Assembly (NCBI GenBank): GCA_028282325.1
Contig: JANQID010000107.1
Location: forward strand, 1 to 64,000
From: Chloroflexaceae bacterium
GTDB taxonomy: Bacteria; Chloroflexota; Chloroflexia; Chloroflexales; Chloroflexaceae
Direction of reading: 5' to 3'
DNA: 64,000 nt
The position numbers were made by a program, and so were the translations under genes. Under the pieces are notes generated by a model. That model made no database searches, had not been told where the DNA came from, and saw only the letters and a list, made by a program, of their open reading frames with translations. Position 1 is the stretch's first letter. Every line of letters begins with the position of its first letter. This document shows, one piece after another, positions 7,460 through 53,258 of this stretch.

Positions 7460-7759
7460 TCAGTATAGTTCGCTCACCTCATAGAATAGTATCAGAGTGC
7501 CAAGACTTTTCATGTATTCTTTTTCAGGCTGTCCGTCTGGAGGGACGGTCGCCATAAACTCATCCAACGAATCGAAGGAGGCTTCGACCACCCTCGAGTA
7601 GGGCGCAGGGCCTCCTGGTCTCATGAGGTCGCCCGCACTAAGTTTGAGCGAACGTAAGCCATCAGCTTGTTTGATCCCAGGGATAAACTTGCTGGATATG
7701 AATTCATCCAACGTCTTGAGGTCAGCAGATTTGGGGAAGAGAAACAGAACATTAATCAT
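7460..7759 (-). CDS. EthD-like ferredoxin-fold small protein (cassette gene)
   Basis: 99 residues starting MINVLFLFPKSADLKTLDEF and containing FIPGIKQADGLRSLKLSAGD and YSRVVEASFDSLDEFMATV. This is the pattern of EthD/REDY-type dimeric alpha-beta barrels, where strands carry hydrophobic residues and a short loop precedes the SxxxF helix. Such proteins bind or help degrade small hydrophobic molecules; no specific substrate is evident. About 155 bp separate its stop from the attC core, without another gene. Confidence 0.6.
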   Translation of the reverse strand: MINVLFLFPKSADLKTLDEFISSKFIPGIKQADGLRSLKLSAGDLMRPGGPAPYSRVVEASFDSLDEFMATVPPDGQPEKEYMKSLGTLILFYEVSELY

Positions 7760-7835
7760 CAGTGCCTCTGTACCGTAATTTTACTTTGAACACAGTTAAT
7801 CTTACAAAGATTTATGGCAAAAAAGAAGGGGGGAT

Positions 7836-7945
7836 TAAAATTCGGTCGTGGTCAGAACCGTACTGTCAGCTTTTCTACGCTGCGGCTCACCAGAGCATGA
7901 CGCGAACGTCAGTCGCAGTACGGTTCTGACCGCCACCTAAAATTC
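7836..7945. mobile_element. 94-bp MITE with 22-bp terminal inverted repeats and 8-bp target duplication
   Basis: The element (7844-7937) begins GGTCGTGGTCAGAACCG and ends with the inverse CGGTTCTGACCGCCACC. The terminal repeats are 22 bp with two mismatches, the inner 16 bp being perfect (7850-7865 and 7916-7931). It is bracketed by identical octamers TAAAATTC at 7836-7843 and 7938-7945. It encodes nothing. It lies in the leader of the EthD-like cassette, just after the GTTGGGC boundary. No autonomous relative is in the window. Confidence 0.82.
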
Positions 7946-7948
7946 AGC

Positions 7949-7988
7949 CGCCCAACGTCAAAGCTCACCTGCCGCTTTGGTCTGCCTT
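7949..7988 (-). other. Partial attC-like site at the end of the nuclease-domain gene
   Basis: On the minus strand, CAAAGCGGCAGGTGAGCTTTGAC is followed by a perfect GTTGGGC core (7949-7955). The gene's TGA stop lies inside the hairpin (CAAAGC / GCTTTG). No RYYYAAC partner is visible further into the gene, so either the site is truncated or its R'' core is degenerate within the coding sequence. Confidence 0.5.
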
Positions 7989-8891
7989 AATAGTGTCAAT
8001 TAACATTTCTTCTAACTGTGAAAGTGACGAAACAGTCATTGAGAACAATGATGTAAGAGCCGCAGACTTATCTGGTGTAATATCAGTAAGAACCATTATG
8101 GAATGCTCATGATCCAAATTTAAAATCCTGGACATCTTTGAGTATTTGCTTATGTGTTGCTGATAATCACCTGATTTTGCTTCAATCCAGTAAAATGATT
8201 CATTTACATGAAAAATTAAATCCAGTTCAAAATCGTCGCCATTTGGCAAAACCACTTGAGGATTTAACAAATATGAAAAAGCAAATTCTGTATCCAATTC
8301 TTTTGATGCAAGATTGACGGCACTTTGTACACTCAACAAAACGTAGCGTTCAAGCCATTTACCAGAGAAGAAATTCTGTGCGGTTGGCAATGTGGTTGTT
8401 TTTGCTTTTATTAAATACTGTGGCGACTTAAAATATTTGTACTGCTCCAAAAAAGCTATTTCATAAAGCCTTGTTGAAAACTGACAAACATTACTTACAT
8501 CTTGCTGAGGATAATCCTTTATGGAAAGGGTGATAAAGCCACCCTGCTGCATATTTCTTTTTATTTTTGTAAGTAGTTCTTGTAGTCCATCATAGTTTTT
8601 GCCAAGAAATTCTGATAGAGAATTTATTACCTCATCAGCCCCATCCTCAGGAGGAACCGTTTTTATTTTAATATTCCGCTTGTTGAGAAATTCCTCAATA
8701 GCATTACTCTCATCTTCTTCTTTCGCATCCGTCAAAACACCCTCGTCTTCAAGTATTTCACTCCTATTGACACCTTCACCAGTGACTGCTTCTGATATAG
8801 CATTGTTGTTGTTCCCGCTCAAGGAATCTGCAATTCGTTCAAGTGCAGTAGCAATACGCTCCAGCAAACTTGATATTTCATTATTTTCCAT
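7965..8891 (-). CDS. Protein with Card1/DUF1887-like PD-(D/E)XK nuclease domain (cassette gene)
   Basis: 308 residues. Residues 1-25 form a short amphipathic coiled coil (SLLERIATALERIADSL), followed by an acidic linker to about 65. The C-terminal domain has SGKWLERYVL (176-185) and FELDLIF...YWIEAKSGDY, giving a probable metal site D224, E237 and K239. The GxWLExY, ExD and (E)xKSG pattern is the signature of the DUF1887 nuclease domain of the CRISPR-associated effectors Card1/Can2. No CARF-like sensor domain is apparent at the N-terminus; residues 70-165 are unassigned. No CRISPR genes are nearby. A role in DNA or RNA cleavage, perhaps in defence, is inference. It is the first gene of the cassette cluster. 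Confidence 0.68.
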   Translation of the reverse strand: MENNEISSLLERIATALERIADSLSGNNNNAISEAVTGEGVNRSEILEDEGVLTDAKEEDESNAIEEFLNKRNIKIKTVPPEDGADEVINSLSEFLGKNYDGLQELLTKIKRNMQQGGFITLSIKDYPQQDVSNVCQFSTRLYEIAFLEQYKYFKSPQYLIKAKTTTLPTAQNFFSGKWLERYVLLSVQSAVNLASKELDTEFAFSYLLNPQVVLPNGDDFELDLIFHVNESFYWIEAKSGDYQQHISKYSKMSRILNLDHEHSIMVLTDITPDKSAALTSLFSMTVSSLSQLEEMLIDTIKADQSGR

Positions 8892-8924
8892 TCATCTCTT
8901 CCGTTTTTGCCTAACATGAATTAG

Positions 8925-9047
8925 ATGGCAATCATGCCGCCTCTGATCGCTTAGAGTAATGATACACAGCAATCATGCCGTCTATGAACGCCCGGAGCCA
9001 TCATAGACGGCAATCGTGCCGCTTCTGATCGCCTGGAGCCATCATAG
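8925..9047. repeat. Three 41-bp tandem repeats upstream of the cassette cluster
   Basis: Units at 8925-8965, 8966-9006 and 9007-9047 share the pattern GGCAATCATGCCG...GATCGC...AGCCATCATAG with some divergence. Each begins with a small GGCA/TGCC dyad. They lie immediately upstream of the nuclease-domain gene, in the place where an integron would have attI and its promoter. No spacer structure like CRISPR is present. Confidence 0.75.
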
Positions 9048-9219
9048 GATGAATAGCCTCCGCACCATCCGCGTGTCAGCCATCAGGCTCATAGCACATC
9101 TGATCGACTGCTTAACCATCCATGGGCGGCGTCTGCGCAGTCTCCTAACCGCACAGAACATCCCCGTGATTACCGCCCGCCACCCTGGAGGAGGATGCTC
9201 GGCGGCAACCGTTGCAGTT

Positions 9220-9353
9220 CTACCAAACCATATGGGACACACCGCATGGTGTCATTCTGAGCACAGCGAAGAATCTCAGGTTCCAATAACGCCGAGACAC
9301 TTCCCCTTCGCTTCGCTCAGGGTGATATGCGGCGTGTGTATCATCATTTGGTG
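9220..9353. mobile_element. Foldback MITE-like element, copy 2
   Basis: Starts CTACCAAACC and CCGCATGGTGTCATTCTGAG, continues with the AAGAATCTCAGG arm and the CTTCGCTTCGCTCAGGGTGA arm, and ends ATCATCATTTGGTG. Both arms and both ends of the family are present. No clear target duplication. Confidence 0.75.
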
Positions 9354-9756
9354 TCTTCCCTCAGCGGTGTGGTAGTATGCAGCCAATAATCGTGCGATGG
9401 AATGTCAGAGTGGATGCCTTGACTATATCACACAGGATGCGGATGTCAAGCAGCAAATGCAACGCCAGATCCCTGAGTACGGGTACGGCGAACCGGCGAC
9501 GGGGCGGGGATATGCGACGCGCGTCCGCGATCAGCGTCGCTCACCTTGCGTTCCATGATGAAGTGGCCCGGCGGGATCAGCAAGTTGTTGACCAGCTTCA
9601 GGGCAATGTCGGGCTTCCAGCGGGCACGTATGCGCACGACCGGGGGGCGACGGCGCTGGGCCGGAGGATGCACATTGCCAGGCGGCGGTAAAGGCGGGAT
9701 CGCTGTTGATTCAGAACCAACGCTCGCTCCGGGTCAAGCCGCGACGCCGTTCGCTA
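9354..9756. other. Stretch without supportable gene
   Basis: Several overlapping reading frames exist but none has a ribosome site or recognisable product. Positions 9558-9580 hold a 23-bp sequence (ATGAAGTGGCCCGGCG, then RGATCAG) repeated with one mismatch at 35737-35759. Confidence 0.5.
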
Positions 9757-44431: not shown

Positions 44432-46510
44432 TTGGCAGGCATCGGCAAAGAACAACAGTTGTCCGCTCCAACAACGCCTGTTGGCGCAGCTAGTCGCCAG
44501 GGAAGCTCTTTAGAGCCAACCTCGTTCCTCCTGATCGGGCGCTGGATCAGCCTCGCCCATGCCGCCTGGCTGATCCTGGCGCTGGCAGTGGCCGGGATCT
44601 ACCTCTGGGCGCTCCGGATCTGGACAGTGGAAGGCAACTACTGGGGCAGTACGCTGCTTGACGTGCCCTACGCCATTCTTATGCCGACCGGCTATTTTGT
44701 CATTGCTACGGTGATTTTCATACGTAAGCCCAATGATATGACGGCCATCCTGACTTCACTCATGCTCATCTTCCTGGGGCCGTATCTCCTATCCAGCGTG
44801 AACGTCACTATTGGCCAGCAACCCGGTTGGGAGATTGTCAACCGATTGCTGGTAGCTCTGGGCGGCGTCCTATTCTGGCTGTTTCTGTTTACGTTCCCCG
44901 ATGGGCGTTTCCCGTCCGGGCAGGTGCGCTGGTCGGCGTTGCTGCTGATCGGCGCATACTCTTTTGGTATTTTCTTCTCGGCGGAAGTATATGCGGGATT
45001 TAACGTAGTGTTTATCCCGACAGCTATATTGCTGGGAATTTCCGTGCAAATCTATCGCTACCGGCGACTCTCTTCCCCGATCCAGCGCCAGCAAACGAAG
45101 TGGGTTGTCGCTGGATCGGTAGGCCCGGCGATCGAGATCCTCTACTGGATACTGCTCCTGGAACCGGGCATATGCGCTCCTCCCGCCGAGCCGCTGCTGT
45201 TTTACGTACACCAAAGTATTCAAGCTGCCCTGGCCCTGCTTTTGCCCATTGCCCTGGCATTTTCGATCCTGCGTTATCGGTTGTGGGATATTGACTCCAT
45301 CATCAGCCGTACGCTGGTGTATAGCGTATTAACAGCCATTATCATCGGCTTGTATGCGCTATTGGTCGGAGCAATGGGCGCATTGTTTCAAGCACAATCC
45401 AACTGGCTGATTGCATTGATTGCTACTGGGTTGGTGGCCGTGCTCTTCCAACCGCTGCGTGAGCGCTTGCAGCATCGTGTCAACCGGCTGGTGTACGGCC
45501 ACCGCGATGAGCCGTTTGAGGTGCTGACGCGGCTGGGACAACGGTTAGAGAACGCTCTCGCTCCGGAATTGGTTCTGCCGACTATAGTCGAGACCATTGC
45601 CCAGGCTTTAAAGCTGCCCTACGCGGCCATTGCTTTGCAGCAAGGCGAAACGCTGCAACCGATAGAGTCCTACGGCGCACCTGCCGCCGACTTGCATACC
45701 TATTCGCTCGCTTACCAGGGAGCGGTGATAGGCCAGTTACTGGTTTCGCCGCGCTCTCCAGACGAGCCCTTTACCGAAGAAGAGGAGCGTTTGCTATATA
45801 ACGTCGCCCAGCAAGCAGGAACAGCCGTACACGCACTACAACTTACGGCCGATTTGCAACACGCCCGTCAGCAAATCGTAACCAGCCGCGAAGAAGAGCG
45901 CCGTCGATTGCGCCGCGATCTGCACGATGGGCTCGGACCGTCGCTGGCAGCGCAGTTGCTCAAAATCGGATCGGCGCGGGCGTTGCTGGCCAATCGACCG
46001 GATATGACCGACAAGCTGTTGGCTGAAATAGAGACCGACATCGAGAACACGTTGGCCGAGGTGCGCCGCATTGTCTATGATCTGCGACCGCCGGCGCTGG
46101 ATCAGTGGGGGCTGGTCAGGGCGCTGCGCGCGTATGCCGAAACTTGTGAAAGCGGCAACTCAAACACCGCCGCGTTGACGCTGCACGTGGATGCACCCGA
46201 TGCATTGCCGCCGTTGCCTGCTGCCGTAGAAGTGGCCGCCTATCACATTGCGCGAGAAGGGTTGACCAACGCAATGCGCTATGCACAGGCACGTCACTGT
46301 ACGCTGCATATCAGCATAGATCCCGGAGAGAACAGCCGCTTGCGCCTGACCATCAAGGACGACGGGCAAGGCTTCGCCAACGACGTGCGCGCCGGTGTGG
46401 GCTTTACCGCGATGCGCGAACGCGCCGCCGAATTGGGCGGAACATGCACCATTGAAGGGAAGCCTGGCGCAGGCGTACGCATAACGGCTGTGCTCCCCTT
46501 GAAAATATGA
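44432..46510 (+). CDS. NarL-family sensor histidine kinase (multi-TM, GAF, HisKA_3)
   Basis: 692 residues. The first available start is a TTG at 44432 with AAGGA 9 bp before. About eight membrane helices fill residues 30-330 (7TM-type sensor: LAHAAWLILALAVAGIYLW, YAILMPTGYFVIATVIF and others). A GAF domain follows (about 345-480), then HisKA_3 with H498 (RRLRRDLHDGLGPSLAAQL) and an HATPase domain with DDGQGF and VRAGVGFTAMRERAAELGG. The next gene, 18 bp on, is its NarL-type regulator. An extracytoplasmic or membrane-borne cue is likely but unknown. Confidence 0.92.
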   Translation: MAGIGKEQQLSAPTTPVGAASRQGSSLEPTSFLLIGRWISLAHAAWLILALAVAGIYLWALRIWTVEGNYWGSTLLDVPYAILMPTGYFVIATVIFIRKPNDMTAILTSLMLIFLGPYLLSSVNVTIGQQPGWEIVNRLLVALGGVLFWLFLFTFPDGRFPSGQVRWSALLLIGAYSFGIFFSAEVYAGFNVVFIPTAILLGISVQIYRYRRLSSPIQRQQTKWVVAGSVGPAIEILYWILLLEPGICAPPAEPLLFYVHQSIQAALALLLPIALAFSILRYRLWDIDSIISRTLVYSVLTAIIIGLYALLVGAMGALFQAQSNWLIALIATGLVAVLFQPLRERLQHRVNRLVYGHRDEPFEVLTRLGQRLENALAPELVLPTIVETIAQALKLPYAAIALQQGETLQPIESYGAPAADLHTYSLAYQGAVIGQLLVSPRSPDEPFTEEEERLLYNVAQQAGTAVHALQLTADLQHARQQIVTSREEERRRLRRDLHDGLGPSLAAQLLKIGSARALLANRPDMTDKLLAEIETDIENTLAEVRRIVYDLRPPALDQWGLVRALRAYAETCESGNSNTAALTLHVDAPDALPPLPAAVEVAAYHIAREGLTNAMRYAQARHCTLHISIDPGENSRLRLTIKDDGQGFANDVRAGVGFTAMRERAAELGGTCTIEGKPGAGVRITAVLPLKI

Positions 46511-46528
46511 CCTATGAAAGAGTAGCCT

Positions 46529-47191
46529 ATGGATACCATTCGAGTTTTGATTGCCGATGACCACCAGCTCTTTCGCGATGGGCTGAAGGCGCTGCTTCTG
46601 TCCGCACCGGATACCGAAGTGGTAGGCGAAGCAGCTACCGGCGCCGAGGTTATCCAACTGGCCGCGCAAACGCAACCTGATGTTATTTTAATGGACATCC
46701 AGATGCCGGATATGGACGGCGTAGAAGCCACTCGCGCGATTATCCAGGCGAGCCCAAACATCAATGTGCTGATGGTGACGATGTTTGATGACGACCAGTC
46801 GGTTTTTGCCGCTATGCGCACCGGGGCACGGGGATATGTGCTAAAAGGCGCCAAGCACGACGAAATGCTGCGCGCCATCCGAGCCGTCAACAGCGGAGCA
46901 GCCATATTTAGCCCCAATATCGCCGCCCGTATGATGCGTTTTTTCACCGTCAGCCGCAACACCGCTGAAAACACAGCATCCAGATCAGAAGAAACGTTTG
47001 CCGACTTGACCGACCGCGAACGGGAAATTCTCGCACTCATCGCCCGCGGCCAGTCAAATGCAGCTATCGCCGAGACTCTGACCATCAGCGTGAAGACGGT
47101 GCGCAATCACGTCTCGAACATCCTCAACAAACTCCAGGTGGCCGACCGGGCTCAGGCTGCCATTCGAGCCAGGGAAGCAGGATTGCAGTAA
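46529..47191 (+). CDS. NarL/LuxR-type response regulator
   Basis: 220 residues. Receiver with D12/D13-type acidic pair (IADDHQLFRDG), phospho-acceptor D56 (VILMDIQMPD), and Lys in VLKGAKHDEML. The LuxR-type helix-turn-helix (LTDREREILALIARGQSNAA, IAETLTISVKTVRNHVSNIL) occupies residues 155-215. It is 18 bp from the kinase gene and is surely its partner. Confidence 0.95.
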   Translation: MDTIRVLIADDHQLFRDGLKALLLSAPDTEVVGEAATGAEVIQLAAQTQPDVILMDIQMPDMDGVEATRAIIQASPNINVLMVTMFDDDQSVFAAMRTGARGYVLKGAKHDEMLRAIRAVNSGAAIFSPNIAARMMRFFTVSRNTAENTASRSEETFADLTDREREILALIARGQSNAAIAETLTISVKTVRNHVSNILNKLQVADRAQAAIRAREAGLQ

Positions 47192-47929: not shown

Positions 47930-48100
47930 GCTGATGAGCATCTGCTTCGTTGCTCATCAGCTTTGCGGAAGCGCGCCGCGCGGTGAATGTCTGGATCGAG
48001 GCCAAGGATACAACCGCGAGCGACCGCATCAGACGCTGGGCAGCATGATTACCAACGAATATCGAGCCAGGGAGCGGATGCTGATGCCTGATCTGCCCAA
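47930..48100 (+). pseudogene. Decayed IS3-family transposase C-terminus
   Basis: One frame reads ISFAEARRAVNVWIEAK and a second, shifted by one, continues GYNRERPHQTLGSMITNEYR. Joined, they give the xxxWIEdYNxxRPHQxLGxxTPxEY end of an IS3-type (OrfB/integrase core) transposase. The frameshift and missing catalytic core make it a dead remnant. Confidence 0.72.
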
Positions 48101-48384
48101 CAACATATAAAAGCCGAAACCCCTTCCGTGATTGCATCATCCGTCGTGTACCTTCGCTCTGGCAATTTGTTGCAATCTGCTAGGTATTTCTGTGTGCTCA
48201 TTTCTGCCAAATTGCGTGGTGATGGAACTATAGCGTACAATAGAAGGGCAGTTCTGTGCCGAATGAATCATGTGCTCAGCCAGGCAGACACCTCACTGCA
48301 TATCTTCAACTGCGTCCAACGCGCCAATCCTCAGCGGCTTTGTTCGTATCGCTCATATGCCGCCAATAGAGAAAGGAGTCGCCG

Positions 48385-51300
48385 ATGACCAGATCGAGGC
48401 CATCTGGAGCAATCGCGCCAACGTCAACGATGCGTAACAACAGCTTACTTGCAACGGGGCTCGTTTTTGTGGTGATGGTTCTTTTCGCTTTGATCATCCT
48501 GCCCCCGCTTGTGGGCAATCAGACCAATCATGTTCAAACCCGCCTCGACAATGATGTGCAATTGCTGGCAAATACGTTATATGCAACGGAAAACGAATTG
48601 CAACAGATGCAGGCGGCAGTACGAGGGTATCTCTTTTCACAATCGCCGCAATATCTTGAGCAGTACCGCGCAGCCAGGATGCGCCTCGCGACCAATCTTC
48701 AGCATACGGCGCAATTAGCGTCACGCGTCGATCCTGAACTTGGACCTCAGATCGACGACCTGACCGCGATCATCGAGCGCTGGCAGATCGAAGGTAGTGA
48801 CAGTCAGGCAGCCTTGATTCAGCAGGGCCGGACGGTCGAGGCCGTTGAAACGGTAGCAGGGGGCGCCAATCAGGCGCTGTTTGACGCTAGTCTGAGTCGC
48901 ATCAACGATTTGCAAGCCCAAAACCAGGAAATTCGCGATCAACTCAAAGAGCAGCTTGCGCAAATTCAGGCATTAGACAGCGCGATCACCACAGGCTTGA
49001 GCGTTCTGGGCCTGGTTGCCGCTGCTTTCGTGATCGTTGGCTTCCACCGTCTAAGCATACTCACCCGTGGCATTGAGACGGCGAGCGTCGAGAGCACAAA
49101 GCTGGCGCAGCAAGTACACGACCAACTCGCAGACAGCCGCTCGCGCAATCGTCAGCTCACGGTGTTGCACAATGTGGCTATGGCATCGGCAATGAATATC
49201 CAGCTTGAACAACGCGCCCAGAGCGTGCTTGAAGCCATTACCAGCACGCTCGATTTACCGTTTGGGATCATCTGGTCGTATGATCCCAAACACGATCGTT
49301 TCTCTCCAATCGCCTGGCGGTTGCAAGGAACGTTGAGCCATCTCGATGCTCCGTCCACGTGGGTCAGCGATGAAGACTGGCTGGTTGTCAATAGCGCCGC
49401 CCCGCCATCGGCTATTGACGTGCTACACCATAACCGCCTGCTAGTCATTAGCGACGCCATTGCCGAAAGCCCGCCCGATATGGACAATCTGCATAACAAA
49501 CTGGGTTTCACTGTTCGCAGCAGCCTGTTATTGCCGCTACGGGGACGCAGCCAGCCGATTGCCGTGCTTATGCTCGCCTCTGCGAAAAAGGGCTTCTTAG
49601 ACAACGCCGATATGGCCTTTTTCGAAACGTTGGCGCTTCAGGTCGGCCTGGTGCTCGAAAACGCCTTGCTCTCTACCGGCGCTCAGGTGCAATATCAGTG
49701 GCTTCAGGCTGTGTTCGATCATTCGCCCGACGGCATTGTGGTGGTGGAAGCGACCGAGGGCGCAATTGTGCTAGTAAATTACGCGGCGATGGAACTGATA
49801 ACCGATCTTGTTCCCGATGCCGTTCTGGCGGATCATCCGATGTTGCAACGATTGTATCAACCGGGCGGCGCTTCTTGCCCACCGGAACAATTTCCGTTGC
49901 TGCAAACCCTACGCGATGGCGACGCACGCCGTGGCGTTGATCTGGTTCTTGAACAGACCGACGGGCCGCGCGTTCCGATCCGCGTCACCAGCGTGCCAAT
50001 GTATCACGAAGATGGGCGGTTGCAAGGAGCCGTCGCGGTGATTCAAGATCTGCGCCATATCCGCGAAGTCGAGCGGATGAAGTCAAACTTTGTGGCGATG
50101 GTCAGCCATGAACTGCGTACGCCCCTGACGATTATCCGCGGCTGTACGGAAACCTTGATGGCGGGCAATGCCAGTCCCGCACGAACGCGCGAGTTTCTGC
50201 GCATCATTGACGATAAGGGTGAGCAGTTGCAAGAGCTGATCGACAATCTGTTGAATATGTCGCAGGTGGAGGCCGGAGCGCTGCCGTTGCGCTGCGAGCC
50301 GGTTGCGCTGCCGTTGCTCGTGCGCAACGTTGTGCGCCAGATGCGCGATCGCCTGGCCGGTCTCCGCATCCAGACCGATCTGTCCCAGCGTTTGCCCCTC
50401 GTCAATGTCGATTCCCGCCGGATCGAGCAAGTCTTCTTCAATCTCCTCGACAATGCCCGCAAATTCTCGCCGGCCGGCAGCGTCATTACCATCACTGCCG
50501 CTGCTGACGCTGACGAGGTTCACGTAACGGTGCGCGACCAGGGGCCGGGCATCCCGCCTTCCGAGCGCACAAGGGTTTTCGAGCGCTTCTATCAGGCGCC
50601 CCAGCCGGGCATCGCTAATACCAGCGGTACGGGGCTGGGTCTGGCTATCTGCAAGGCGCTGGTTGAAGCCCACCAGGGGCGTATCTCGATCAACCCCGCC
50701 GCCGGAGGCGGTGCGAATGTCGAAATCACTTTGCCGGCATTGGTCGATCAAGAACCCCTGCCGCTTACGCATCCGAGCCTGATAGTTCGCAACTCCGGCC
50801 CGCAACCGCGGGTGCTGGTGGTTGATGATGACTCTGCCTTGCGACGCTTGCTCGAAAGCAACCTGAGCGATGCCGGTTACGCCGTCCAGACAGCCATCGA
50901 GGGCCAATCCGCCATCACCGCGGTCGCCAACCAACAACCGGATATCGTCCTCCTCGACTTGATGTTGCCCGGACCTGATGGGATTGCAATTTGTCGCCAG
51001 TTGCGCGAGTGGAGTTCGGTACCGATTATTATGTTAACTGCACGTTCGTCAATGCACGACATCGAACTCGGCTTTCAAGCCGGCGCCGACGACTACCTGA
51101 CGAAGCCGTTTCATTTGAGCGAGCTTCACGCACGAATACAAGCGGTTATGCGGCGATCCCAAATGGCCGTTACGGCTGATGGCCTCGCGATCTTCCATAA
51201 TGACGATCTGATGGTCGATCTAGCCAAACGACGGGTGTTTGTCAACGACGCTCCGGTCGGGCTTACGCCTATTGAGTACAATATCCTCAGCTTCTTGGTT

Positions 51301-51489
51301 CGCCACGCTGGTCAGATATTGACACACGAACAAATACTGCGCGAAGTCTGGGGCGATGAATACCACAATGAACATCACTATGTGTGGGTGCATATCGCCC
51401 ATCTACGCCAAAAGATCGAGCCTGATCCCAAGCGCCCGCGCTACATTCTGACCGAACGCGGCGTCGGTTATCGATTAGCCAAAACGTAG
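48385..51489 (+). CDS. Histidine kinase fused to a complete OmpR-type response regulator
   Basis: 1,034 residues from the ATG at 48385 (AAAGGAG, 6 bp). Order: membrane helix (22-42), CHASE3-like four-helix sensor (45-190), second helix (195-222), GAF (255-410), PAS (430-550), HisKA with H575 (VSHELRTPLTIIRG), HATPase (about 670-790, GTGLGLAICKAL), receiver with D858 (VLLDLMLPG), then a winged-helix DNA-binding domain (945-1034, LTPIEYNILSFLVRHAGQIL and ERGVGYRLAKT). The last two domains form a whole OmpR/PhoB regulator. A membrane-bound single-chain two-component system with DNA-binding output is unusual. A putative operator with phased repeats lies 60 bp downstream. Confidence 0.95.
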   Translation: MTRSRPSGAIAPTSTMRNNSLLATGLVFVVMVLFALIILPPLVGNQTNHVQTRLDNDVQLLANTLYATENELQQMQAAVRGYLFSQSPQYLEQYRAARMRLATNLQHTAQLASRVDPELGPQIDDLTAIIERWQIEGSDSQAALIQQGRTVEAVETVAGGANQALFDASLSRINDLQAQNQEIRDQLKEQLAQIQALDSAITTGLSVLGLVAAAFVIVGFHRLSILTRGIETASVESTKLAQQVHDQLADSRSRNRQLTVLHNVAMASAMNIQLEQRAQSVLEAITSTLDLPFGIIWSYDPKHDRFSPIAWRLQGTLSHLDAPSTWVSDEDWLVVNSAAPPSAIDVLHHNRLLVISDAIAESPPDMDNLHNKLGFTVRSSLLLPLRGRSQPIAVLMLASAKKGFLDNADMAFFETLALQVGLVLENALLSTGAQVQYQWLQAVFDHSPDGIVVVEATEGAIVLVNYAAMELITDLVPDAVLADHPMLQRLYQPGGASCPPEQFPLLQTLRDGDARRGVDLVLEQTDGPRVPIRVTSVPMYHEDGRLQGAVAVIQDLRHIREVERMKSNFVAMVSHELRTPLTIIRGCTETLMAGNASPARTREFLRIIDDKGEQLQELIDNLLNMSQVEAGALPLRCEPVALPLLVRNVVRQMRDRLAGLRIQTDLSQRLPLVNVDSRRIEQVFFNLLDNARKFSPAGSVITITAAADADEVHVTVRDQGPGIPPSERTRVFERFYQAPQPGIANTSGTGLGLAICKALVEAHQGRISINPAAGGGANVEITLPALVDQEPLPLTHPSLIVRNSGPQPRVLVVDDDSALRRLLESNLSDAGYAVQTAIEGQSAITAVANQQPDIVLLDLMLPGPDGIAICRQLREWSSVPIIMLTARSSMHDIELGFQAGADDYLTKPFHLSELHARIQAVMRRSQMAVTADGLAIFHNDDLMVDLAKRRVFVNDAPVGLTPIEYNILSFLVRHAGQILTHEQILREVWGDEYHNEHHYVWVHIAHLRQKIEPDPKRPRYILTERGVGYRLAKT

Positions 51490-51548: not shown

Positions 51549-51602
51549 CTTAAGGGATAGCGTTCGCACCTTAAGGTTGGCTTAAGGGTAGCGCGATACA
51601 CT
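51549..51602 (+). promoter_or_regulatory. Three phased CTTAAGG repeats upstream of the kamA-like gene
   Basis: CTTAAGG occurs at 51549, 51570 and 51581, that is with 21- and 11-bp spacings, on one DNA face. The first and third are followed by GGATAGCG or GGTAGCG. OmpR/PhoB-type regulators bind direct repeats of 11-bp period that replace the -35 element. A TACACT at 51596 could be the -10. The likely target is the kamA-like gene 230 bp downstream; the likely binder is the fused regulator just upstream (inference). Confidence 0.5.
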
Positions 51603-51827: not shown

Positions 51828-53258
51828 ATGTTGCCCGCTCCAGTATCTCATATGAAGCCGATTGTAGTAGAGACCGCGATGAAATTTCAACCTTACGGGC
51901 TACACAATTTTCGCGCCATTCCCCAAATCGAGCGCCTTTCTGAAGCGCAGAAACATAACATAGAGGTTGTTGGACATGTGCTGCCGTTTCGTACAAATAA
52001 TTATGTCATTCAAGAATTGATCGATTGGGACAATGTTCCTGATGATCCAATTTTCACCCTGACCTTTCCCCAGCGCGGTATGCTCAAATCCTATCATTTC
52101 AATCTGGTGGCCGATGCGCTCAAACGAGGCGTAGAACGCGCCGAGCTTGCTGAAATCGTGAATCGCATTCGCTGGGAGCTCAATCCCCACCCTGCAGGCC
52201 AGATCGAGCATAACGTGCCCACATTGAACGGCAAGCGACTCAATGGATTTCAGCATAAATATCGTCAGACAGTGCTCTTCTTCCCCAATAAGGGCCAGAC
52301 CTGCCACGCCTTTTGCACATTCTGCTTCCGCTGGCCGCAGTTTGTCGGCTTCGACGATATCCACTTTGCAAGCCGGGAAGCCGAGACGCTGGTCAGTTAT
52401 GTGCGGGCGCATCCCGAAGTTTCCGATGTGCTCTTTACCGGCGGCGATCCGATGATTATGCGCACCCGTAGCTTCGCGACATACATCAATGCGCTGCTTG
52501 ACGCCGATTTGCCCAACCTACACACCATCCGCATCGGCACCAAGACGCTGGGCTATTGGCCCTATCGATATGTGAGCGATCCCGACGCCGATGAGTTGCT
52601 CCGTTTGTTTGAGCGCATTGTTCAACACGGATTGCATCTGGCGATAATGGCGCATTTTAGCCATCCGGTTGAACTAAGCACGCCGGCGGTGCAGGAGGCG
52701 ATTCGGCGCATTCGCAGCACGGGCGCGCAGATCCGCACGCAGTCGCCGATTCTGCACCACATCAACGCCAGCGCCGCGATCTGGGCCGAGATGTGGAAAG
52801 AGCAAGTGCGCCAGGGGTTAATCCCTTACTATATGTTTGTAGCCCGTGACACTGGGTCGCAACACTTCTTCGAGATCCCGCTGGCAAAAGCATGGAATAT
52901 CTATCAGGAGGCGTATCAGCAGGTAAGCGGCATCTGCCGCACTGTGCGCGGACCGAGCATGTCATGCCATCCGGGCAAAGTGCAAATCTTGGGCGTCAGC
53001 GATATAGCCGGACAGCAAGTGTTCGTATTGCAGATGTTGCAGGGGCGCAATCCAGACTGGGTTCGGCGACCGTTTTTCGCCCGCTTTGATGAGGTTGCTA
53101 CCTGGTTCGACGACCTACGGCCTGCGTTCGACGAAAAGGAGTTTTTCTTCAGTCGCGAGCTGGAGGAGATGAGCGCGTTGAGTTGTCCCCTCAACATTCC
53201 GCCGGACCTGGCGCAACCATTTGCCAGCAAGCCCGAATCGACCTGGATCTCGGCGTAG
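51828..53258 (+). CDS. KamA-family radical SAM protein
   Basis: 476 residues from the ATG at 51828 (GAGGAGG). The radical SAM cluster motif is C159-x3-C163-x2-C166 (GQTCHAFCTFCFRW). FTGGDPMIM is the SAM-binding GGE/GGD-type loop, and SCHPGKVQILG supplies a Lys in the place of the PLP lysine of lysine 2,3-aminomutase. The N-terminal region (FTLTFPQRGMLKSYHF) differs from classic KamA. Probably an aminomutase-type enzyme on lysine, glutamate or a related substrate; the exact activity is unknown. Terminated by a good hairpin. Confidence 0.88.
   Translation: MLPAPVSHMKPIVVETAMKFQPYGLHNFRAIPQIERLSEAQKHNIEVVGHVLPFRTNNYVIQELIDWDNVPDDPIFTLTFPQRGMLKSYHFNLVADALKRGVERAELAEIVNRIRWELNPHPAGQIEHNVPTLNGKRLNGFQHKYRQTVLFFPNKGQTCHAFCTFCFRWPQFVGFDDIHFASREAETLVSYVRAHPEVSDVLFTGGDPMIMRTRSFATYINALLDADLPNLHTIRIGTKTLGYWPYRYVSDPDADELLRLFERIVQHGLHLAIMAHFSHPVELSTPAVQEAIRRIRSTGAQIRTQSPILHHINASAAIWAEMWKEQVRQGLIPYYMFVARDTGSQHFFEIPLAKAWNIYQEAYQQVSGICRTVRGPSMSCHPGKVQILGVSDIAGQQVFVLQMLQGRNPDWVRRPFFARFDEVATWFDDLRPAFDEKEFFFSRELEEMSALSCPLNIPPDLAQPFASKPESTWISA

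Follow-up and report, generated by a model that had tools for sequence, protein, structure and literature searches.

A membrane-bound single-chain two-component system with an OmpR-type output domain in Chloroflexales

Introduction

Can a complete OmpR-type response regulator work as the tail of a membrane-bound sensor kinase? This question is raised by the gene at 48385-51489 of the window, the whole stretch of 64,000 nucleotides analysed here. A chain that begins as a membrane sensor and ends as a DNA-binding regulator is generally regarded as unfavourable, since its ends belong in different places; a clade of Chloroflexales nevertheless has such chains, and their output is of the OmpR type, which has been studied more than any other kind of regulator. 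In the open-access literature that was searched we found no description of an OmpR-type membrane fusion of this kind, which does not prove that none exists.

Gene structure and domain composition

The gene is one uninterrupted frame from an ATG at 48385 to a stop at 51487-51489. All seven Pfam domain calls lie above the curated cut-offs, and the order of the parts is TM, CHASE3, TM, GAF, PAS, HisKA, HATPase_c, Response_reg, Trans_reg_C. The features are as follows.

48373..48378, + strand: Shine-Dalgarno AAGGAG, 6 nt 5' of the start codon (from sequence)
48385..51489, + strand: complete gene, encoding sensor kinase, response regulator and winged helix as a single chain of 1034 aa, unbroken in other genomes too
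48445..48501, + strand: TM helix 1 (aa 21-39), by hydropathy
48562..48951, + strand: CHASE3 extracytoplasmic sensor domain (aa 60-189), PF05227, E 4e-14, helical in the model
48982..49038, + strand: TM helix 2 (aa 200-218), by hydropathy
49204..49659, + strand: GAF domain (aa 274-425), PF13185
49702..50052, + strand: PAS domain (aa 440-556), PF13426/PF00989
50077..50277, + strand: HisKA (aa 565-631), PF00512, phospho-acceptor H575 (codon 50107-50109)
50410..50739, + strand: HATPase_c (aa 676-785), PF02518, with intact N, G1 and G2 boxes
50746..50799, + strand: linker between kinase and receiver (aa 788-805), of low pLDDT and rapid evolution; the receiver is not preceded by a ribosome-binding site
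50812..51141, + strand: receiver (aa 810-919), PF00072, acceptor D858 (codon 50956-50958)
51253..51477, + strand: OmpR/PhoB-type winged helix Trans_reg_C (aa 957-1031), PF00486, recognition helix YVWVHIAHLRQKI

The initial annotation had described an OmpR-type regulator, DNA-binding domain included, fused behind a membrane-bound kinase; the single frame, the Pfam domains and the two TM helices bear this out. It had also named the two phospho-acceptors correctly, H575 lying within HELRTP and D858 within LLDLM. Kinase, receiver and DNA-binding domain share one open frame, the acceptor His and Asp are present with their motifs (kinase H, N and G1 boxes; receiver D/D/T/K) intact, and the succession of a receiver and a Trans_reg_C winged helix is the architecture of the OmpR/PhoB family. 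The product is a single-chain (hybrid) two-component system with an OmpR-type output, which probably works in the manner of the Bacteroides hybrid two-component systems (HTCS). In the genome from which the window was taken, which has 20 Trans_reg_C genes, this is the one among 141 matches to the protein that carries a kinase and a winged helix in the same chain.

The model of the receiver and winged helix matches OmpR-type regulators, both kinase-bound (6lgq, of which chain 6lgq_D is the best match among solved structures) and DNA-bound (KdpE, 4kfc). The structure model as a whole has a pTM of 0.35 and so leaves the arrangement of the domains unpredicted. Residues 788-805, the kinase-receiver linker, have a pLDDT below 50 and are predicted to be disordered, and the winged helix is tethered in turn by another hinge (927-933), predicted with low confidence. 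The residue that we take to correspond to R91 of PhoB, in the alpha4-beta5-alpha5 dimer patch, is a Leu here, which counts against the mechanism proposed below.

Upstream in the window (44432-47191) lies a separate NarL-type pair, a HisKA_3 kinase followed by a LuxR-type regulator, and just 5' of the gene (48000-48110) a frame ends whose product, on visual inspection, looks like an IS transposase. The gene neighbourhood was discarded as a guide to function, since that of the window has nothing in common with those of the other fused genes; an operon around the fused gene is conserved in genus g21 only.

Proposed mechanism

We propose, as a probable reading, that the chain is a complete two-component system in which the phosphoryl group passes from His to Asp in cis and membrane-held winged helices bind 11-bp repeats. 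A dimeric HisKA kinase would be tuned from outside by CHASE3, which sits between the two TM helices, and from the cytoplasm by GAF and PAS. Once phosphorylated, H575 would hand its phosphoryl group to D858 in the receiver, which hangs on a flexible linker of about 18 residues; the phosphorylated receiver would then free or pair the OmpR-type winged helices, which would bind direct repeats spaced by 11 bp without the protein leaving the membrane. From the sequence we infer the transfer from H575 to D858, the membrane localisation and the membrane-anchored DNA binding. Since membrane sensor, kinase, regulator and DNA-binding domain are one chain, the protein probably controls genes from the membrane.

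Distribution in Chloroflexota

Unbroken homologues of the protein were found in G032 (60% over the kinase-to-winged-helix part and over the C-terminal 600 residues) and in G011 and G023 (44% over the whole protein). The unbroken fused frame also occurs in G046, as a fragment, and in genus g21, which belongs to another family of the order and of which many genomes have it. The 12 fused Chloroflexales proteins form one clade (100/100) in a tree of kinase and regulator, their recognition helix reads Y[LV]WVH[IMV] in 12/12, and all those fetched at full length have two TM helices at equivalent positions. Within Chloroflexota the membrane-bound fusion is a genuine family, conserved in a single order, the Chloroflexales. 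In genus g21 (L165-L171) the G1 box of the kinase is altered to DYGTPL, and in the conserved operon the fused gene comes directly after a gene for a polytopic membrane protein with weak similarity to PMT_2 and ahead of a DegT-like aminotransferase gene and of genes resembling FtsY and glutamine synthetase (all these names except PMT_2 were assigned by eye). In G032 the fused gene is followed on the same strand by a second hybrid kinase (L161:1248-4565, - strand) with PAS, GAF, HisKA, HATPase and two receivers, lacking a DNA-binding domain.

A survey of related genomes, as suggested at the outset, placed the membrane-bound fusions, among the proteins fetched at full length, in Chloroflexales and soluble fusions elsewhere in the phylum. 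Of 400 Chloroflexota genomes, 103 strongly match the region from PAS to winged helix, and about 80 of some 145 matches are fused and stop-free (hand count of the table). In samples of about 300 genomes from each of three other phyla, to which genomes of Rubrobacter, Desulfovirgula and Sutterella belong, the 20 strong matches are all split by stops. The genome and pair counts vary with the E-value cut-offs chosen and with how closely a sequence resembles this protein, so that fusions in other phyla would escape them if divergent. Outside Chloroflexales, none of the 26 fused proteins from Chloroflexota that were fetched at full length has TM helices. The fusion of kinase, receiver and winged helix is widespread in Chloroflexota and mostly soluble, and the membrane form marks the Chloroflexales clade. 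The soluble fused group is itself a clade (84/92); fused and split sequences fall into separate clades, and a single origin of the fusion for the membrane and soluble groups, set against two origins, is neither supported nor rejected (p-AU 0.39).

According to the statement in PMC3018481 that cites Cock and Whitworth, TM helices and DNA-binding outputs associate with unfused genes, and membrane-bound kinases are under-represented among fusions with DNA-binding outputs; going by that statement, the membrane-bound design is mechanically awkward. Our overall pattern agrees with it as it stands there, and the Chloroflexales membrane form is the exception.

Selection on the domains and alternative readings

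Strong selection acts on every domain, and the winged helix is the best-conserved part: in four homologous pairs its dN/dS is 0.02-0.04, the lowest of the protein's parts, compared with 0.06-0.13 for the receiver and 0.07-0.13 for the kinase. The frame of the kinase-receiver linker is open throughout, with a dN/dS of about 0.85 in two pairs and saturation in the other two. Such a fast-evolving linker, together with its predicted disorder and low pLDDT at 788-805, would fit a chain that is cut there, near 788-805, releasing a soluble OmpR-type regulator, with no DNA binding at the membrane. The aligned linkers, however, hold no conserved sequence that a protease could recognise, and across the fused genes they range from 13 to 25 residues and vary freely in length and sequence, so that we regard cleavage as improbable.

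The receiver might instead be part of a phosphorelay or a phosphate sink, the winged helix being driven by conformational coupling and no phosphoryl group passing to D858. Related soluble fusions in which N, S, A or E has replaced the acceptor Asp although the kinase His persists lend themselves to this reading, but D858 and its acidic pocket are retained in all Chloroflexales membrane forms, and Pfam finds no Hpt domain in this protein; we give the alternative very little weight.

The soluble relatives concerned are six f18 members with N (L176, L201, L202, L203, L204, L207), the f24 members L177, L179, L209-L212 and L219 with a gap, S or A, and the f40 member L178 with E, all of which keep the kinase His; these losses rest on one column of a MAFFT alignment. 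A further fused frame, L208 (822 aa), has a degenerate kinase (MVSRGLRTP in place of SHELRTP, N and G1 boxes broken) and keeps the winged helix. The acceptor-less soluble fusions suggest a phosphate-independent coupling. They invite a speculative evolutionary series, which we consider rather doubtful, in which tethering made phosphotransfer dispensable: the Chloroflexales would have kept the His-to-Asp transfer and bind CTTAAGG (see below) from the membrane, while soluble branches would have lost the Asp (N; S or A; E) and signal by conformation alone. Set beside these soluble, acceptor-less cousins, the membrane form allows one to ask what need for phosphotransfer is left when a regulator is joined to its kinase.

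An additional soluble response regulator could in principle arise by internal translation initiation near the start of the receiver, where there are in-frame GTG codons, one of them with GGTG 3 nt upstream. An AGGAG-like signal is nevertheless absent before the receiver in this gene, and a lenient test for a Shine-Dalgarno sequence plus start codon before the receiver was passed by 21 of the 25 split pairs and by only 5 of the 24 genes with a fusion (Fisher p 1e-5). Because of this difference we conclude that the regulator is, as a rule, not translated separately in fused genes, and although those five pass the test, an internal start is most improbable here.

Finally, the initial annotation had asked for a check on a stop or frameshift near 50780, between kinase and receiver, and many homologues elsewhere are indeed split by one stop at this place, but an assembly or sequencing error merging two genes is excluded in practice because independent assemblies from several genera of the order carry stop-free, full-length fused homologues with the linker open in all of them, and the fused and split sequences belong to separate clades.

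A candidate operator and candidate target genes

Regulators of the OmpR family, such as PhoB and OmpR, usually bind 11-bp direct repeats. In genus g21 three CTTTAGG copies, 11 and 20 bp apart, lie 5' of the operon to which the fused gene belongs, the repeat being perfect over 11 bases in G079. Searching the window with this g21 pattern uncovered CTTAAGG sites: a perfect pair starts 81 bases 3' of the gene, and a third copy stands 21 bp before the pair. Direct repeats were not found 5' of the gene itself.

51549..51587, + strand: candidate operator, three CTTAAGG half-sites (51549-51555, 51570-51576, 51581-51587) with spacings of 21 and 11 bp
51597..51602, + strand: candidate -10 element TACACT, 9 nt past the last half-site; same spacing to CATACT in G011 and G023
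51828..53258, + strand: candidate target gene for a KamA-family (lysine 2,3-aminomutase-like) radical SAM protein; TIGR00238 122 bits against a cut-off of 199, PF04055 below its cut-off
L247, 7232-7280: four half-sites before the SBP_bac_5 gene 7570-9297
L248, about 7773-7821: four half-sites before the gene 7874-9604

A perfect CTTAAGG triple occurred in 0 of 300 resampled sequences of the same region, and the window contains one other such triple, inside GC-rich coding sequence. The exact two-site pattern is expected 0.03 times per genome; with at most one mismatch it is found at one place in the genome of the window, 3' of this gene (a reverse-strand hit is the same place). The L247 and L248 sites belong to G011 and G023, which both have the fused gene and carry four CTTAAGG-type half-sites, spaced 11-21-11 bp, before orthologous Opp-type peptide transporter operons. 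The two-site pattern is absent from three genomes in which the fused gene went undetected, but, as a point against the operator, also from G032, the closest homologue's genome, and from G046, both with the fused gene. One-mismatch CTTAAGG pairs in G023 at C212 (5' of an OpuAC-type binding protein) and C802 were discarded as being at chance level, about one per genome, and a TTTAGG pair located elsewhere in G074 was likewise taken as chance.

The layout of half-site followed by -10 element resembles that of PhoB-activated promoters. A promoter scan was marginal against shuffled sequences, and a terminator scan gave no excess over shuffles. The candidate target genes differ from genome to genome. 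The CTTAAGG repeats are a lead to an operator, and another OmpR-type regulator could own the sites; this protein may bind them and may control the downstream KamA-like candidate gene. With this candidate site beside the gene, the locus is a clean case in which to study the search for tandem DNA repeats, and their binding, by a dimer anchored in the membrane.

Comparison with known systems

The family and structure matches of the receiver, winged helix and kinase core are best with KdpE/PhoB/RpaB/MtrA-type regulators and PhoR/PnpS-type kinases, which, unlike the present protein, work as two separate proteins. All NCBIfam scores listed fall below their curated cut-offs (PnpS 247 versus 400, RpaB 232 versus 330, KdpE 206 versus 325), and we therefore rejected an assignment as KdpDE, PhoBR, PnpS or RpaB equivalog. 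The soluble Chloroflexota fusions (650-875 aa) share one frame and the same order from catalytic to DNA-binding domains, but they lack TM helices and CHASE3, and several lack the acceptor Asp.

Among membrane-bound systems, the Bacteroides HTCS are likewise single chains that run from a membrane sensor through kinase and receiver to a DNA-binding domain (PMC11253607), a transmembrane kinase being fused to the regulator in both. Their output is of the AraC type, whereas here it is an OmpR-type winged helix, combined with a CHASE3 sensor and cytoplasmic GAF and PAS domains; having a Trans_reg_C output, the protein stands outside the AraC-type HTCS family. The initial annotation, which held that the DNA-binding domain would have to work at the membrane as in Bacteroides hybrids with their AraC-type outputs, was right in this comparison and contrast, but an OmpR-type domain working at the membrane has a precedent in ToxR/CadC (PMC5430869). 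In ToxR/CadC a membrane-held OmpR-type winged helix is connected by a single TM helix to a periplasmic sensor and acts with no kinase, receiver or phosphorylation, whereas the present protein has two TM helices, a kinase and a receiver and does not belong to that group. ChiS of Vibrio cholerae is a membrane-anchored hybrid sensor kinase that itself binds DNA (PMC8092284, PMC11856585); it does so through a cryptic variant of the HTH, in contrast to the OmpR-type winged helix found here.
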